53,356 bases of DNA from a virus: IMG/VR virus record IMGVR_UViG_3300044844_001309, positions 1-53,356 of that record. One strand, written 5' to 3'. The notes under the pieces are model-generated. The model was given only the letters and a program-made list of their open reading frames with translations. It searched no databases and was not told the origin of the DNA. Position 1 is the stretch's first letter; each line of letters begins with the position of its first letter. Shown here piece after piece: positions 23,476 to 53,356 of the stretch. The position numbers and the translations under genes were made by a program.

Positions 23476-23510
23476 GCGCGCCCACCGTGCAGCCCTAGGC
23501 CGATGGCCTG

Positions 23511-23516
23511 TACGAT
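23511..23516 (+). promoter_or_regulatory. -10-like element of the XRE regulator gene
   Basis: TACGAT, followed by 6 nt and then GTG 23523, the same spacing as at 8846-8858. No TTGACG at the expected -35 position (tgcagc is there), so it is weaker than the others. Would give a leaderless transcript. Confidence 0.3.
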
Positions 23517-23522
23517 TCGCGT

Positions 23523-23909
23523 GTGACCTACAGGCCCACGAGGCTAGAGTGGGTCATGCAGCCGTACGGTCGTGGTCATCTCGCCAAGGCGCTCCGCGAA
23601 GCGCGCGCGCATCTCGACGTGTCGCAGTACTCGGTGGCGCACCACATCGGTGTCCACCTCACGAGCTACGGCCAGGCCGAGCTCGGGCGGAAGCTCTTGC
23701 GGGATGACCGCCTCCTGCTGGCGGAGCAGTTCCTCGAGTGCCCGGCCGGCACGCTGGTGCGCGCGGCCGCGCAGGACCGTCAGGAGGTCAAGCTTCCGGT
23801 GGGCCAGGAGGACCGCGACGACGTGGTGGTGATGTTGGCGGTGCGCTGGCGCGACCTGTCGCGCGCGCAGATCGACGGCATCCGCGACGTGCTACGGGCC
23901 GCTGGGTGA
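23523..23909 (+). CDS. XRE-type helix-turn-helix regulator (moron candidate)
   Basis: 128 aa from GTG 23523; ATG 23556 (12th codon) is an alternative. Residues 20-60 read as a Cro/C1-type helix-turn-helix: LAKALREARAHLDVSQYSVA, HIGVHLTSYGQAELG. The C-terminal half is helical with basic residues. On the plus strand within the head genes, divergent from the protease gene and overlapping the portal stop by 18 nt. May act as a repressor in the lysogen or regulate late genes; target unknown. Confidence 0.65.
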   Translation: MTYRPTRLEWVMQPYGRGHLAKALREARAHLDVSQYSVAHHIGVHLTSYGQAELGRKLLRDDRLLLAEQFLECPAGTLVRAAAQDRQEVKLPVGQEDRDDVVVMLAVRWRDLSRAQIDGIRDVLRAAG

Positions 23910-38581: not shown

Positions 38582-38796
38582 CGGGCACCTCCCGGCGACG
38601 GCCGCGAGGCTACGGCGCGCGCACCGCGAAGCGTCGTGTGCTCCTGGCCGGCCCAGCGCACGCCGTCGACGATGCGCACGACACGGTAATGATGCTTCCC
38701 GCACCGGCTGCCGTCAAAACGCAGCACCGGCGCGGACTCGATCGAGACCGTGTCCGAGAGCTTCTCTCTCACTGTCCATGGACCTAGGTTCATCAT
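38578..38796 (-). CDS. Small hypothetical protein with basic C-terminus
   Basis: 72 aa, ATGATG at 38796/38793 overlapping the cytosine methyltransferase stop. Contains VLRFDGSRCGKHHYRVVRIVD and GVRWAGQEHTT. No family recognised. Confidence 0.55.
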   Translation of the reverse strand: MMNLGPWTVREKLSDTVSIESAPVLRFDGSRCGKHHYRVVRIVDGVRWAGQEHTTLRGARAVASRPSPGGAR

Positions 38797-40307
38797 CCGA
38801 CCCTCAGGGTGAGTTGCTTGGTGGCGCGCACCGTGCGCGCGAAGTTGGCCTTGACCAGCGCCTCCGCCATCACCGGCGACACGCTGTTGCCGACCATGCG
38901 GACCTGCTCCGTCTTGGTCAGCGGCGCGCCGTCCGCGCCCTCGTCGATCACGTAGCTGTCCGGGAAGCCTTGGCAGCGGAAGAGCTCGCGGGGGCTCAGC
39001 ATCCGCATGCCGATGTCGACCACCACGTAGGTCTCACCGTCGATCGTCACCGTCGCCAGCTCGGCCGCGGCGTCGTAGCCCTCGAACCGCTGGAGGAGCG
39101 AGTACACCGCCGCGATATGCGTCCCGCCCGCGGTGATCGTCGGCGCGGGCGCCTCGACCGACCGGCCGCCACGGTCCGAGCCGCGGAGGTGCACCAGGTG
39201 GGCCGCCACGAGCGCGTGGTGGTCGACGGTGGTGATGGTGCCCGCGGGCTTGTCGAGCGGGACACCGGCGACCTTGTCGTTGCGCTTGCCGCCGTAGTGC
39301 TTCGCGAGGAACGCGACCGAGAGCGCGTGCTTCACGCCCTCGGCCATCACCGTGCCGAGGGGCTGCTGGATGTCGTAGACGCGCGGCGCCTGGCCCGGCC
39401 GCTCCCCGTTGCCCGAGTGGTAGAGCACCGGGGCCACGAGGGCGAAGCGGTCGCGCGTGACGATGGTGTCGAGCGGTGCGTCCAGGTCACGCGGGCCGCC
39501 CGTGCCGTAGTACTTCACGATGAACGGCCGCGCCGACTTGAGTACGAAGCGCCGGACACCTCGGGCGATGCGGGCCAGCGTCTTGTCCGCCAGCGGGCGC
39601 GGGCGCTCGAAGATCGACGGACACGGGATGCTCCAGTCGATGCACTCGGCCGCGGTGCGGTACGGGTGCGCGCGGCCAGGTCCGTGCGTCGGCTCGGGCC
39701 AGACGATCGGCTGGCCCGTGGACGTGGCGATGATGAACAGCCGCCGGCGCGTGGTCGGCGCGCCGTAGTCGCACGCGCGGAGCTGGCGCCACTCGACGGT
39801 GTACCCGAGCGCACGGAGCTTCCCGACCCACACGCGGAACGACCGGCCCGCCTTCGCAGGGTCGGGCTTGCCGTCGTGGCCCAGCGGCCCCCAGGCCTGG
39901 AACTCCTCGACGTTCTCGACGAACAGCCAGTCCGGCCGCGCCGTCTTCGCCCAGCGCAGCAGCACGCCGGCCAGCGCCCGGCGCTTGTTCGCGCCGCGCG
40001 GGTCGCGGAACGGCGCCGAGCCTCGAGCCTTGCTATGGAAGGTGCAGTCCGGCGAGCCCCACAGCAGCGTGAGCGGGCGGCCGCGGACCACGTCCTCGGG
40101 GCGCGTGTGCCAGATGTCGCCCACCCGGTGCTCGGTCAGGGGGTGGTTGCGGGCGTGCATCGCCAGCGCCTGGCGGTCGTGGTTGATCGCGACGTCGGGC
40201 CCGCGACCCAAGGCCCACTCGATCCCCAGGCTCGCCCCGCCGCCGCCGGCGAAGGCGTCGACGATGAGCCCGTCCGGGTGGATGCGCAGAAGCTTCACCG
40301 CCTTCAC
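38793..40307 (-). CDS. DNA (cytosine-5) methyltransferase
   Basis: 504 aa from GTG 40307, AGGAGG 7 nt upstream. Motif I FAGGGGASLGIE (19-30), motif IV GSPDCTFHS with Cys88 as catalytic nucleophile (phage-style SPDC), motif VI ENVEEF (131-136), motif VIII QLRACDYGAPTTRRR, motif X GNSVSP. A complete enzyme with AdoMet site and target domain between 200 and 450. Orphan; probably protects against host restriction. Follows the ATPase gene with a GTGA overlap. Confidence 0.9.
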   Translation of the reverse strand: MKAVKLLRIHPDGLIVDAFAGGGGASLGIEWALGRGPDVAINHDRQALAMHARNHPLTEHRVGDIWHTRPEDVVRGRPLTLLWGSPDCTFHSKARGSAPFRDPRGANKRRALAGVLLRWAKTARPDWLFVENVEEFQAWGPLGHDGKPDPAKAGRSFRVWVGKLRALGYTVEWRQLRACDYGAPTTRRRLFIIATSTGQPIVWPEPTHGPGRAHPYRTAAECIDWSIPCPSIFERPRPLADKTLARIARGVRRFVLKSARPFIVKYYGTGGPRDLDAPLDTIVTRDRFALVAPVLYHSGNGERPGQAPRVYDIQQPLGTVMAEGVKHALSVAFLAKHYGGKRNDKVAGVPLDKPAGTITTVDHHALVAAHLVHLRGSDRGGRSVEAPAPTITAGGTHIAAVYSLLQRFEGYDAAAELATVTIDGETYVVVDIGMRMLSPRELFRCQGFPDSYVIDEGADGAPLTKTEQVRMVGNSVSPVMAEALVKANFARTVRATKQLTLRVG

Positions 40308-49336: not shown

Positions 49337-49683
49337 CCCCCACCCCCCACAACGCCCACGCCCCACTCCGCCAGCGCCAACTCGCGCGCCTTCTTCGCCG
49401 TGTCGCAGCCGTGCTCCAGGTGCCAGGCCACGCGCTGCGCTAGGAACGCGGTCTCGCCGCTGAGGTCGGCGATGCGCTGGCGCAGCGTCGCGTCTGCCGC
49501 CCGGTCGCGCATCATCATCGCGTTGGCGACACGCTCGCTCACGCTGGCATTCGCCGCGGCCACGCTGGCCTTCATCGTGTCGCGCTCCGACTCCAGGTCG
49601 GCGATGCGCTGGCGCGCGTGCCTCAGGTCGCGGCGCATGGTGTCGACCACGTCGGCGCTGTAGACCTTCTCCCCGCCGCTCAC
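49333..49683 (-). CDS. Coiled-coil protein
   Basis: 116 aa from GTG 49683 (GTGA). Helical with heptad pattern (VDTMRRDLRHARQRIADLES, TLRQRIADLSGETAFLAQRV), Gly-rich end. Second gene of the early operon. Unknown. Confidence 0.55.
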   Translation of the reverse strand: MSGGEKVYSADVVDTMRRDLRHARQRIADLESERDTMKASVAAANASVSERVANAMMMRDRAADATLRQRIADLSGETAFLAQRVAWHLEHGCDTAKKARELALAEWGVGVVGGGG

Positions 49684-49928
49684 GCCCGCACCTCCACACC
49701 CTCGGCCAGCGCCGGCAGCACGCGCTCGGTCGGGCGCTCGTGGCGGTCGGCAAGGAGGTCCTCTCGGCCGTAGTCGTGGAGCTGCGCGCGGAGCGAGGCC
49801 AACGCCGCCGCCGCCGCACGCGAGCGGTCGAGGTCGGCGAGCGAGCACGCGGGGCGCGTCACAGCGGCCGAGAGCTCGCGGGTGATGGCCAGGATCTTGG
49901 GGTCGGTCAGGACGAGTCGAAGGCTCAT
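49680..49928 (-). CDS. Small early protein, first of operon
   Basis: 82 aa, ATG 49928, 6 nt after the -10 box of its promoter, so leaderless. Sequence MSLRLVLTDPKILAITREL then RSRAAAAALASLRAQLHDYG, helical. No family recognised. Heads the operon 49928-44536. Confidence 0.65.
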   Translation of the reverse strand: MSLRLVLTDPKILAITRELSAAVTRPACSLADLDRSRAAAAALASLRAQLHDYGREDLLADRHERPTERVLPALAEGVEVRA

Positions 49929-49934
49929 GTCCTG

Positions 49935-49963
49935 TATCTAGTATTTAGATGATAGAGCGTCAA
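49935..49963 (-). promoter_or_regulatory. Early promoter, leaderless type (P49928)
   Basis: TTGACG (49963-49958), 17 nt, TAGATA (49940-49935), 6 nt (CAGGAC), ATG 49928. AT-rich against the GC-rich background. The -35 box lies 2 bp beyond the integrase stop, so it is in the int-early junction. Same layout as P44436. Confidence 0.7.
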
Positions 49964-49964
49964 G

Positions 49965-51047
49965 CTACTCGCTAAAAGATATTCCGCCACCGAAGCGCAG
50001 CCGCAGCTGCTCGGGCTCGGTGACGGGCGCCGGTGCGATCTCGCCCGCGAACGGGATCCGCTCGACTTCCGCGGCGATCTGGCTCCACTCCGTCCGCGAG
50101 TAGCCCTCGACCACGTCCCGGCTCCGGGCGTGGGTCACTTGCCGGATGAGCCCCGGCTCACACCGTGCGGCGCGGGCGGCTGTGAGGAACGTGTGCCGGA
50201 GCGCGTGGGGTGACCGACCCTTGCGCAGCCCCAGCACGGCCAGGTCCTGCCGCATCCGCGCCGCGGCATTGTCGCCGCGCACAGGGGTGCCGTTGCCTGT
50301 GGGCACCAGCAGGTCCTCCCCGCGCGGGATGCGGCCGTGCCGACCGGCCCAGCCGAGGGCGTGCCACCAGGTCAGGCCGCGGGCGAGGGTCGAGTGGACC
50401 GGGACCCGGCGCACCGTCGCGGTCTTCGTCGCGCCCATCCGCCGCTCGCGGCAGTCGAACGACCGGGCCACGAACAGCTCGAGCCCGCCCACCGAGCTCC
50501 GCCGCAGGTCCGACCAGCGCAGCGCGGCGACCTCCCCGATCCGCATCCCCGCCATGCCGCACAGTCCCCACAGCACCCGCCGCTGGGCAGGCACCCGAGG
50601 GTCCGAGACCAGCTGAGCCAGCTCGTCCAGCGCGAACCAGAACCCCGCCCGCCACTCCGGGTCGGCGTCCGCATCCGCCGGGAGGTCGGCCGGCCCCAGG
50701 ATGCACGGCGTTGAGGGGATGATGCCGTCCACCACCGCGTCCCGCAGCACCCAGCTCAGCGTCGCGTAGGCGTGCCGCACCGTGCGCGGCGCCAGGTCCT
50801 CGGCCAGCCGCGCCACCCAGACCCGCACCCACGCGGCCGTGATGTCGGCCAGCGGGACGCCCGCGAAGGCCGGCCGCGCGTAGCTCTCCAGCCGCTGCCG
50901 GTCCGTCCGTAGCGAGCGCGGACGCACCTGAGCCCGCCTCGCCAGCCACCGATCCACGTACACGCCGAAGGTGCAGTCGGGGGCCGCCGTCGGCGCCGAA
51001 AGGCGCGCCAGCTCGGCAGCGGGCACACGAGGAGAGCGAGAACGCAT
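49965..51047 (-). CDS. int: Tyrosine recombinase (integrase)
   Basis: 360 aa from ATG 51047 with GGAGG 9 nt upstream; an alternative frame start further up was rejected. SAM-like DNA-binding N-terminal domain (residues 25-110, RSLRTDRQRLESYARPAFAG), catalytic domain with Arg169 (GMRIGEVAALRW), Lys208, His281/Arg284 (SPHALRHTF), His306 (THARSRD) and Tyr316 (EGYSRTEW). Inserts phage DNA at a tRNA-Thr gene: attP lies 138 bp upstream. Complete set of catalytic residues, so likely active. Confidence 0.92.
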   Translation of the reverse strand: MRSRSPRVPAAELARLSAPTAAPDCTFGVYVDRWLARRAQVRPRSLRTDRQRLESYARPAFAGVPLADITAAWVRVWVARLAEDLAPRTVRHAYATLSWVLRDAVVDGIIPSTPCILGPADLPADADADPEWRAGFWFALDELAQLVSDPRVPAQRRVLWGLCGMAGMRIGEVAALRWSDLRRSSVGGLELFVARSFDCRERRMGATKTATVRRVPVHSTLARGLTWWHALGWAGRHGRIPRGEDLLVPTGNGTPVRGDNAAARMRQDLAVLGLRKGRSPHALRHTFLTAARAARCEPGLIRQVTHARSRDVVEGYSRTEWSQIAAEVERIPFAGEIAPAPVTEPEQLRLRFGGGISFSE

Positions 51048-51107
51048 GAGCGATCTTCCTCCGAGGGCGCACGTCTGGTGCGTCAAAGTAGCGTGGAAAT
51101 CATTGCG

Positions 51108-51137
51108 TTCGCGCGCGTGAGCAAGGCGGCGCGCGAA
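51108..51137 (-). terminator. Hairpin between repressor candidate and integrase
   Basis: Perfect 9-bp inverted repeat TTCGCGCGC (51108-51116) and GCGCGCGAA (51129-51137), 12-nt loop, in the gap between the two genes. No T-run follows on the minus strand, so termination is uncertain; could also be a binding site for the integration machinery. Confidence 0.4.
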
Positions 51138-51143
51138 TGAAAA

Positions 51144-51539
51144 TCAGGCGGCTTTCGCCGAGGGATTCTGATCGTGGCGAGCGCGCGGTTTCGTAAACCG
51201 CAGGTCACCGGTTCGATCCCGGTCGTTGGCTTCCCCACCCACGCGCCGCTTCCCCTTCCCGCCCCCACCCGGGGACGGTGCCGGCCCGCCGCTCAGCGCG
51301 ACCGCCATTGCCCGCGTCGACTCCAGCCGCTCCCGCGCCCGATCGAGGTCCGACGCAAAGCGCCAGACCACCGCGACCGACACACCATACTGCTCGGCCA
51401 GGGCCTGCGCCTCGGCGGCACGGTCGGCCTGCTCGGTGTGGGGGACATTGCGGTACAGGAGGCCCGAGTCCTTGGGACGCGGGCCGCGCTTCTTCGGCGA
51501 AGTTTTCGGGTCGGGGGCCGGCGGGATCTTCTTGCTCAT
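51144..51539 (-). CDS. HTH protein whose frame spans attP; immunity repressor candidate
   Basis: 131 aa from ATG 51539. Basic N-terminus (KTSPKKRGPRPK), then a helix-turn-helix-like segment AAEAQALAEQYGVSVAVVWRF (about 42-62), a Gly/Pro/Lys linker and a tail of about 29 residues. Residues about 103-119 are the antisense of the tRNA-Thr segment, and the last 12 (ending NPSAKAA) come from phage DNA beyond it. Integration would replace those 12. The -AA end resembles an ssrA-type degradation tag. Repressor role is inferred; see findings. Confidence 0.65.
   Translation of the reverse strand: MSKKIPPAPDPKTSPKKRGPRPKDSGLLYRNVPHTEQADRAAEAQALAEQYGVSVAVVWRFASDLDRARERLESTRAMAVALSGGPAPSPGGGGKGKRRVGGEANDRDRTGDLRFTKPRARHDQNPSAKAA
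51185..51231 (+). other. attP: attP core: 3' half of tRNA-Thr(CGT)
   Basis: Anticodon stem GCGGT (51185-51189), loop TTCGTAA with anticodon CGT (51192-51194), ACCGC (51197-51201), variable loop, T-arm ACCGG-TTCGATC-CCGGT (51107+80 to 51203) and acceptor CGTTGGC ending at 51230, discriminator T. The 5' half is absent (no GCCAACG upstream), so this is not a working tRNA but the piece that restores the host gene after integration. It sits 138 bp upstream of the integrase start. Confidence 0.85.
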
Positions 51540-51546
51540 ATCTACT

Positions 51547-51575
51547 CGTATGCAGACGTTTCGGTGCACCGTCAA
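51547..51575 (-). promoter_or_regulatory. Promoter of the HTH/repressor-candidate gene, leaderless type
   Basis: TTGACG (51575-51570), 17 nt, CATACG (51552-51547), 7 nt, ATG 51539. The -10 box is weaker than at P44436 and P49928, but the geometry is identical. A possible lysogeny promoter. Confidence 0.5.
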
Positions 51576-51642
51576 CGGCTGAACACCTGCTCCGGCCGGG
51601 GCGCGCGGCCGCCCTCACATCGCATCACGCTGATGTCCGGAT

Positions 51643-52020
51643 CTACGTCGCGAGCGCTGCCTCATACGCCTCACGGATCGTCGGGCCGTGACTGGTGCGG
51701 ATCATGTAGCCGCGCTGCACAACGACCGCCCACCCCTCGCCTCCCACGGCCTGAGCTCGCGCGACCTCGCGCCCGTCGTCGTAGATCACCGCGTGACCCC
51801 GACCGCGCAGTATGGGCCACGGCCCGGGCTCAAGCCCGAGCGCTCGCCGGGTGAGGGTGGCGACGGGCCAGCCGCACGCCGCGACCCACTCGGCGAGCTG
51901 CTCGGCCTGAGCCGCCGTCAGGCGGGGCGCGGCGAGCCGCTCGCCCGCCGCCCGGCCCGAGGGGCGGCGGCCCGCACCCGCTCGAGCGCCGCCCCGGCCG
52001 GGCTTCGCTGGGCGGGTCAT
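51643..52020 (-). CDS. Hypothetical protein with GARAGAGR-type N-terminus
   Basis: 125 aa, ATG 52020 (ATGA with the preceding stop). N-terminus KPGRGGARAGAGRRPSGRAA, a basic Gly/Arg motif typical of small phage DNA- or RNA-binding proteins. Then a compact alpha/beta part with LTRRALGLEPGPWPILRGRG and HAVIYDDGREVARAQAVGG. Last of the four leftmost early genes. Confidence 0.6.
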   Translation of the reverse strand: MTRPAKPGRGGARAGAGRRPSGRAAGERLAAPRLTAAQAEQLAEWVAACGWPVATLTRRALGLEPGPWPILRGRGHAVIYDDGREVARAQAVGGEGWAVVVQRGYMIRTSHGPTIREAYEAALAT

Positions 52021-52412
52021 CGGCCGACCTGGGCTTGGGCCGCCGCTCCGACGATCGCCGCTGCGATCATGTTGAGGGGCCCCGCCGCACGCGCCCAAGC
52101 CTCTCTCACCTCGTCTGGAGACTCCACGCTGGGCCACCTCGACGACTCCCACCACTCACGGCGATAGGCGATGGTCTCATCTCTGCCTCTGGGGACCGAA
52201 GCGTCATCGACCTCGGCACGCGCGCGCTCGATGAGCGGCGCCAGCTCGGGGACCGCCACGGTCGCACGCCAGCGATCCAACGGGGTGGTCCAGGTCGCAC
52301 GCCACAACGCGACTAGAGACGTGGCGACCTCCACGCCGATGCTCTCTCGCGCGGCCTCGCCCACGCCGAGCGCCAGGTGGGCCAGGGCTAGGCGGCTCTC
52401 GTCGCGGCTCAC
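52017..52412 (-). CDS. Hypothetical helical protein
   Basis: 131 aa from GTG 52412 (GTGA). Mostly helical (LALAHLALGVGEAARESIGV, ATSLVALWRATWTTPLDRWRA). Ends with an Ala/Val hydrophobic segment MIAAAIVGAAAQAQVGR that could associate with membrane. Confidence 0.55.
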   Translation of the reverse strand: MSRDESRLALAHLALGVGEAARESIGVEVATSLVALWRATWTTPLDRWRATVAVPELAPLIERARAEVDDASVPRGRDETIAYRREWWESSRWPSVESPDEVREAWARAAGPLNMIAAAIVGAAAQAQVGR

Positions 52413-52663
52413 GACGCCACCTCGACACTCTCGACGCTGCCCATGTCCTCGCCGCTCTGGCGAGTCCAGTAGGCGACCGCGAGCTCGGCCGCGCGCAGCG
52501 GGCGGTGCCGCGCGTCGGCAGTCTGGTACGGGAGCGTCTCGACGCTCTCACCGTCGCGGTCGACGGTGACGCTCTGGATAGGGGCCGAGGCCTGCGCCAG
52601 ATCGGCACGCATAATCCACTCGGTGCCGTCGCTCATGGTCACGATGTAGTCGGTGGTCTTCAT
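52409..52663 (-). CDS. Small hypothetical early protein
   Basis: 84 aa, ATG 52663 with AGGAGA 5 nt upstream. N-terminus KTTDYIVTMSDGTEWIMRAD is beta-like; then a helix (HRPLRAAELAVAYWTRQ). Downstream of the alternative-hairpin region 52704-52760. Confidence 0.6.
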   Translation of the reverse strand: MKTTDYIVTMSDGTEWIMRADLAQASAPIQSVTVDRDGESVETLPYQTADARHRPLRAAELAVAYWTRQSGEDMGSVESVEVAS

Positions 52664-52703
52664 GGTCTCTCCTGTGGCGCGGGTTGTCCGCGCCGTGCAT
52701 GCT

Positions 52704-52760
52704 GGGCGCCCGCACACCGCTGTCACGGTGCGGGGCGCCCGGTGGTCTCTCCGGGCGCCC
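52704..52760 (-). promoter_or_regulatory. Mutually exclusive GC hairpins before the 52663 gene
   Basis: Three GGGCGCC-containing arms: A 52704-52719, B 52726-52742, C 52751-52760. A pairs with B over about 12 bp with a one-base bulge; B pairs with C over a perfect 10 bp (GGGCGCCCGG/CCGGGCGCCC) with an 8-nt loop. B cannot do both. The array lies between the stop of the 53240 gene and the start of the 52663 gene. Looks like an attenuator or a processing/terminator switch. Confidence 0.5.
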
Positions 52761-52769
52761 CGGGCGGGG

Positions 52770-53240
52770 CTAGGCGTTGGCCATCGCCCGAGTCCGCGTC
52801 TCGATGATCATTGCCTCGGCCTGGCTCCGGGCCACCGAGTCACGGGCGAGGGCCCGCCGCGCGAGCTGCGCGGTCGCGTCGTCGCCCGCCGCCTCCGCCT
52901 CGGCGCCGAGGGCGCGCACGTCGTCGTCGGTCGCGCTGATCTGGCACGCGGCGACCCAGGCGCGGCCGAGCAGGTCGGTGAGCTGCGCCTCGGTCACACG
53001 GCCGTCCGAGGCGTCTTCGATGTACGAGCCGCGGCGGACGTCGGGGCCCTCGCCCCGGATGCGGCACCCCTCGACCTCGCCCTGCCGAGTCGGCCGAACG
53101 GTGATCGACAGGTCGTCGCCCTCGTGAGCCGAGAGCCACTCGGTCATGTACGCGCAGCGTGCGGCGTGCTCCTCGGTGGTGACGGGGGCGCCCCAGGCAT
53201 CGGCGCTCAGTACGTGGGTCAGGCGGATCTCGGTGGTCAT
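52770..53240 (-). CDS. Hypothetical early protein with masked ribosome site
   Basis: 156 aa, ATG 53240 (position 11 in the left repeat copy). Sequence MTTEIRLTHVLSADAWGAP, a charged middle and a C-terminal helix (RRALARDSVARSQAEAMI). The ribosome site is in the 13-61 hairpin. Likely first gene of the leftmost early operon. No family recognised. Confidence 0.65.
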   Translation of the reverse strand: MTTEIRLTHVLSADAWGAPVTTEEHAARCAYMTEWLSAHEGDDLSITVRPTRQGEVEGCRIRGEGPDVRRGSYIEDASDGRVTEAQLTDLLGRAWVAACQISATDDDVRALGAEAEAAGDDATAQLARRALARDSVARSQAEAMIIETRTRAMANA

Positions 53241-53356
53241 GGTCTCTCTCGTTTCTGCCGGGTGCGCTGTCACGCCCCGACGAGAGAGACTCTACGCGTT
53301 CTCTGGTTCGTGGTCTACCGTAATTCAAACAATCGTACAACCGTAGCAACGGCGGC
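53230..53356. repeat. Terminal direct repeat, right copy
   Basis: Second copy of the 127-bp sequence at positions 1-127. Joining the two copies gives a circle of about 53,229 bp in which the gene starting at 53240 gets its full upstream leader. Confidence 0.93.

Follow-up and report, generated by a model that had tools for sequence, protein, structure and literature searches.

Does integration of this phage into a host tRNA gene alter the C-terminus of a small regulator, and could such an alteration act as an immunity switch? The question was raised by a reading frame (hereafter the regulator) that overlaps an attP-like site beside an integrase gene in IMG/VR record IMGVR_UViG_3300044844_001309, for which a first-pass annotation, made from the sequence alone, had proposed integration-dependent immunity of the kind described in phage BPs. 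All coordinates refer to the window, which is the whole stretch of DNA analyzed (53,356 nucleotides).

Genome and sister contigs

The window is the genome of an uncultured bacterial virus, a siphovirus-like temperate phage. It has genes for a tyrosine integrase, an annealing protein of the Erf type, and terminase, portal, major head and tape-measure proteins, and nearly all genes were carried on the minus strand. The two ends of the record share a 127-bp terminal repeat (1–127 = 53230–53356), which closes it into a phage genome of ~53,229 bp (53.2 kb) with a GC content of 72%; because the contig is circularly closed, attP is present in its un-integrated form. The regulator region was identical in a sister contig from a metagenome (IMGVR_UViG_3300042344_000822), which had 4 differences over 49348–53356, all within 53079–53097. 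An 8.4 kb contig from a second sample (L048, IMGVR_UViG_3300044655_003415) showed ~100% protein identity with the terminase region of the window, so the phage was present in at least 2 samples.

Two further features were recorded. A C-5 cytosine methylase is phage-encoded (38793–40307, minus strand), and a strong 12-bp inverted repeat (CGGGGCGCCCGG, 8-nt loop) lies at 52731–52762 between two early genes, where it could be a terminator or a regulatory hairpin.

Table 1. Positions of the regulator, attP, integrase and associated features in the window.
Feature	Coordinates	Strand	Remarks
Regulator reading frame overlapping attP (candidate repressor)	51144..51539	-	131 aa viral form, ATG start, ends ...NPSAKAA, stop
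Regulator residues 1-84, coding part	51288..51539	-	coding score +20.5
Regulator residues 85-101, Gly/Pro/Lys/Arg-rich linker	51237..51287	-	coding score negative, low pLDDT
attP common core, 47 nt, tRNA-Thr(CGT) 3' half	51185..51231	+	read antisense as regulator residues 103-118
13 codons (RARHDQNPSAKAA) and stop after the core, replaced on integration	51144..51184	-	tag-like -AKAA end
Promoter-like TTGACG-N17-CATACG	51547..51575	-	7 nt before regulator ATG; -10 match weak
Inverted repeat, 9 bp, TTCGCGCGC-N12-GCGCGCGAA	51108..51137	.	between regulator and integrase
Tyrosine integrase, 360 aa	49965..51047	-	core-binding domain from residue ~26; C-terminus ..ISFSE, no -AA
HTH_3 gene (rival repressor), 117 aa	23556..23909	+	only convincing plus-strand gene, inside structural operon

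Coding evidence and expression of the regulator

Coding scores were calculated with a codon model trained on the window's own phage genes. The score of residues 1–84 was reached by 0.6% of wrong-frame windows, and 11% of true-gene windows scored no higher; the other five frames were all negative over the same residues. The N-terminal domain of the regulator is a real gene. Residues 85–131 had a negative score, and such a lack of coding evidence of its own is expected of the C-terminal third if it is partly tRNA-derived. The whole frame scored low (7.4 across 131 codons). At the window's composition, the probability of an open frame was 0.10 for 131 codons, 0.58 for 31 codons and 0.75–0.80 for 13 codons.

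No Shine-Dalgarno sequence was found ahead of the regulator, and a strict sigma-70 consensus and terminator scan gave no match. The hexamer TTGACG was present 34–40 nt upstream of 4 of the 77 predicted starts, compared with 3 of 3775 other NTG codons (p = 5e-6, somewhat generous since the distance window was fixed after the distances were known; the enrichment is large). The four starts, with TTGACG 35–39 nt upstream, were 44436, 49928, 51047 (integrase) and 51539 (regulator), and all except that of the integrase are spaced as would suit leaderless transcripts. For the regulator, the spacing TTGACG-N17-CATACG-N7-ATG, together with the missing Shine-Dalgarno sequence, suggests a leaderless transcript, although the match at -10 is poor.

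DNA binding and relatives of the regulator

The regulator had been described as a helix-turn-helix protein of 131 aa. Its length was as given, and its helix-turn-helix is suggestive only: profile matches to HTH_11 (E = 0.0054) and LPD22 (E = 0.0009) both fell below the curated Pfam cut-offs, and there was no NCBIfam match. The sequences of mycobacteriophage Brujita and of the Gordonia phages Obliviate and Guacamole were used as yardsticks, and features of mycobacteriophage BPs were taken from the literature (PMC4557955, PMC9262239). Under a helix-turn-helix cut-off, 2 of the 3 yardstick repressors passed and that of Brujita gave a sub-threshold match only, so the failure of the regulator is not disqualifying. 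A single-sequence AlphaFold2 model predicted helices at residues 34–51 and 55–83 with a GVS turn (pLDDT ~90 in the central part of the pair), a two-helix unit that surrounds the helix-turn-helix-like motif ALAEQYGVSVAVVWRF. The N-terminus (residues 1–33) is basic, with a net charge of +7. A Foldseek search of the model returned no significant PDB match, and the repressor of Gordonia phage Catfish gave a weak local match in its helix-turn-helix (E = 0.2; 43% across 21 residues), which is consistent with this assignment. A helix-turn-helix, and DNA binding, are plausible. No relatives of the regulator were found in phages, plasmids or 388 Verrucomicrobiota genomes, and viral contigs yielded only the sister contig.

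The attP core and its candidate hosts

The core (GCGGTTTCGTAAACCGC...CGTTGGCT) is translated in the regulator as ..NDRDRTGDLRFTKP. It matched two Verrucomicrobiota tRNA genes (L027 and L017), both called tRNA-Thr(cgt) by ARAGORN, at 46 of 47 positions; the proposal that an attP-like core formed by the antisense 3' half of tRNA-Thr(CGT) lies inside the regulator frame was thus upheld. The codon counts were corrected. The 29 codons reported as tRNA-antisense comprise 16 tRNA-derived codons (47 nt) and the 13 codons after them, and the tail said to have 12 codons has 13, with the ending NPSAKAA as reported.

An exact copy of the 47-nt core was found in none of the GTDB genomes, and no integrated copy of the phage was found. 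Integrase relatives in viral contigs were restricted to the sister contig, and in the Verrucomicrobiota, Eremiobacterota, Chloroflexota and Armatimonadota samples there were none at E ≤ 1e-15, except for a 30% match in one Chloroflexota genome. The TerL relatives were distant phages without a comparable integrase, plus further contigs of the window's own phage. As no host with the exact core was found, and neither integrase nor regulator turned up in the sampled candidate phyla, the host is unproven.

During these searches, 3' halves of tRNA-Thr(CGT) without a 5' half were observed in contigs of Chloroflexota (L005, L006) and of Methylomirabilota (L038). They resemble displaced att remnants, which suggests that tRNA-Thr(CGT) serves as an integration target there. 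The antisense reading beyond the Methylacidiphilum tRNA-Thr (L017, upstream side) gave an integrase-like peptide, and another element may already occupy that site.

Reconstruction of the prophage form

Host tRNA 5' halves were joined to the phage side to reconstruct attL at 40 sites, from geometry only and with the host unproven. Every junction replaced RARHDQNPSAKAA, and the prophage form never kept the viral C-terminus, as the proposed switch would require. On this geometry integration must replace everything beyond residue ~118; the regulator would lose its -AKAA end and its C-terminus must change. What takes its place depended on the tRNA: at least 15 short-D-loop tRNAs gave an immediate stop after KPLLYH or KPLLCH (122 aa), and in every Verrucomicrobiota tRNA examined the frame stayed open through the tRNA (KPLL YQLSYVG or KPLL YRLSYVG) into host DNA, with fusions of 134 to at least 257 aa. 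The BPs prophage repressor is reported to end at a clean stop (PMC9262239); from the reconstructed junctions, such a stop is not guaranteed here.

Comparison with known systems

In the yardstick repressors, a helix-turn-helix domain is followed by a short linker, a tRNA-antisense stretch and then ~24–30 codons ending xAA, with the integrase downstream (Brujita ..SRLGESNPRPIHYQ..NEHAA; Obliviate and Guacamole ..SSPLTGSNRRPLAYK..DAA). Obliviate targets tRNA-Thr and its repressor carries a -DAA tag (PMC4929511), and integrases of the integration-dependent immunity class have no arm-binding domain (PMC9262239). The window has several features in common with BPs, Brujita, Obliviate and Guacamole: regulator and integrase on one strand, with the regulator immediately upstream; a tRNA 3'-half core that the regulator frame reads antisense near its 3' end; an integrase without a recognizable arm-binding domain (judged from the absence of profile matches only); and a viral regulator ending xAA, this end being removed by integration. 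The integrase had been placed directly downstream of the regulator, and its start (ATG 51047, assigned by inspection, Shine-Dalgarno GGAGGA) does lie 96 nt past the regulator stop. Within this gap the hairpin region folded no better than shuffled sequences, and no convincing arm-type or Xis repeats were found flanking the core.

The proposed integration-dependent immunity is thus partly supported: the likeness to Brujita, Obliviate and Guacamole held for layout, tRNA target, an integrase with no recognizable arm-binding domain and the -xAA end, but failed for an integrase tag, a divergent cro-like gene and a Cro/CI helix-turn-helix. The window's integrase is untagged (-ISFSE), whereas those of Brujita (-SAA) and of Obliviate and Guacamole (-LAA) all end in -AA. 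In contrast to the BPs/Brujita type, there is no divergent cro-like gene or PR, the genes upstream being co-oriented, and no recurrent operator was found in the window. The regulator is not recognizably Cro/CI-type, unlike the yardstick repressors, and had no BLAST similarity to them. In the tRNAs that match best, which are non-actinobacterial, the prophage form also does not stop at once, unlike that of BPs.

The -SAKAA end of the viral regulator is a candidate ssrA-like tag, but 5 of the 79 predicted phage proteins end in AA, the regulator included. Candidate-host tmRNA tags end in -ALAA, and Lys at position -3 is not the usual residue. Given this frequency and the probability of 0.58 for 31 open codons, read-through and -AA end are each of limited strength by themselves; the weight rests on the coincidence of read-through, -AA end and position beside the integrase.

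The nearest named relative of the integrase was Mx8 Int (32%). In Mx8, attP sits in int and integration changes the C-terminus of Int (PMC6070905), so that an attP within coding sequence and a C-terminus altered by integration are again found together. The overlapped gene in Mx8 is, however, int itself, whereas the attP of the window lies outside int, in the gene upstream.

A second repressor-like gene

The gene at 23556–23909 matched Pfam HTH_3 above the cut-off and phrog_4583 (transcriptional repressor, 2e-6); its match to the RstR-family model (2.8e-4) was below the cut-off. By these profile matches it is better supported as repressor-like than the regulator, and it could be the immunity repressor of the phage. 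RstR/HTH_3-type phage repressors resemble this gene, which is unlinked to attP and lies among structural genes. Upstream of it, an 8-bp inverted repeat (GGCCTGTA-N16-TACAGGCC) was observed at 23505–23536. The 9-mer TGTACGATT, at 23509 in the promoter region of the gene, recurs once in the genome, in the early promoter region (102–110); as a shared operator it is only a lead, because ~2 shared 9-mers would be expected by chance (our estimate).

Interpretation of the overlap

The gene in the window is real and probably DNA-binding, and integration must alter its C-terminus. The explanation ranked first, at rather less than an even chance, is that the overlap is passive: an ordinary accessory DNA-binding gene beside int, such as one for an excisionase or for a regulator of integrase, whose frame runs on through a captured tRNA fragment because stops are few in 72% GC DNA, with immunity provided by the HTH_3 gene or another regulator. 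The open-frame probabilities for 31 and 13 codons, the end of the coding signal at about residue 84 and the frequency of -AA ends all agree with this, as do the matches of the HTH_3 gene to its Pfam family, above cut-off, and to a PHROG of phage repressors. Excisionases are, moreover, common as the small DNA-binding gene beside int, and in Mx8 uoi is directly upstream of int. Against a passive overlap, -AA end, read-through, position and regulator-like N-terminus all coincide, and the inside of a structural operon is an odd site for a master repressor.

Integration-dependent immunity at 51144–51539 was placed marginally behind, as a possible but tentative reading. The gene would then encode a small DNA-binding regulator, with the attP of this temperate phage lying in the 3' part of the same frame. 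From the circular viral genome, a 131-aa protein ending -SAKAA would be made. Recombination by the integrase between the 47-bp core and a host tRNA-Thr(CGT) would detach the last 13 codons and fuse the gene to the antisense 5' half of the host tRNA. The most likely use of this exchange would be that of BPs and Brujita, in which the viral form would be kept low through C-terminal proteolysis, and the prophage form would be stable and repress the lytic genes. We infer that the regulator binds DNA and represses, that it is subject to proteolysis and that the change of C-terminus matters.

Were the exchange functional, it might instead govern integration and excision rather than immunity, through a directionality factor whose activity differs between the virus and the prophage. 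This was considered improbable. The regulator is small, basic and adjoins int, and both the nearest named integrase and the precedent of an altered C-terminus come from Mx8; yet the regulator has no similarity to uoi, convincing arm or Xis repeats are missing around the core, and integration-dependent systems with a core-only attP have been described without an evident directionality factor (PMC9262239). Least probable of all is that the frame is an artefact from which no protein is made, as its low whole-frame score, missing Shine-Dalgarno sequence and open-frame probability for 131 codons might indicate, since residues 1–84 score within the true-gene range with the other five frames negative and TTGACG stands at the distance shared with three other starts.

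Implications for lysogeny

In the literature that uses the term, as far as the parts consulted extend, integration-dependent immunity is confined to actinobacterial phages and prophages. Should the immunity reading hold, the window would supply the first example that we found outside Actinobacteria. A more far-reaching version was judged unlikely: a lysogeny switch that arose independently outside Actinobacteria on a non-Cro/CI regulator, with the host tRNA providing the replacement C-terminus, as a clean stop (..KPLLYH) in hosts whose tRNA-Thr has a short D-loop and as read-through into host DNA where the D-loop is long. Whether a working prophage repressor arises would then depend on the host tRNA sequence. 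A case in a phage with a core that fits tRNA-Thr of Verrucomicrobiota best would suggest that the coupling of immunity to integration arose more than once, and would make the host-dependence of the fused C-terminus testable.
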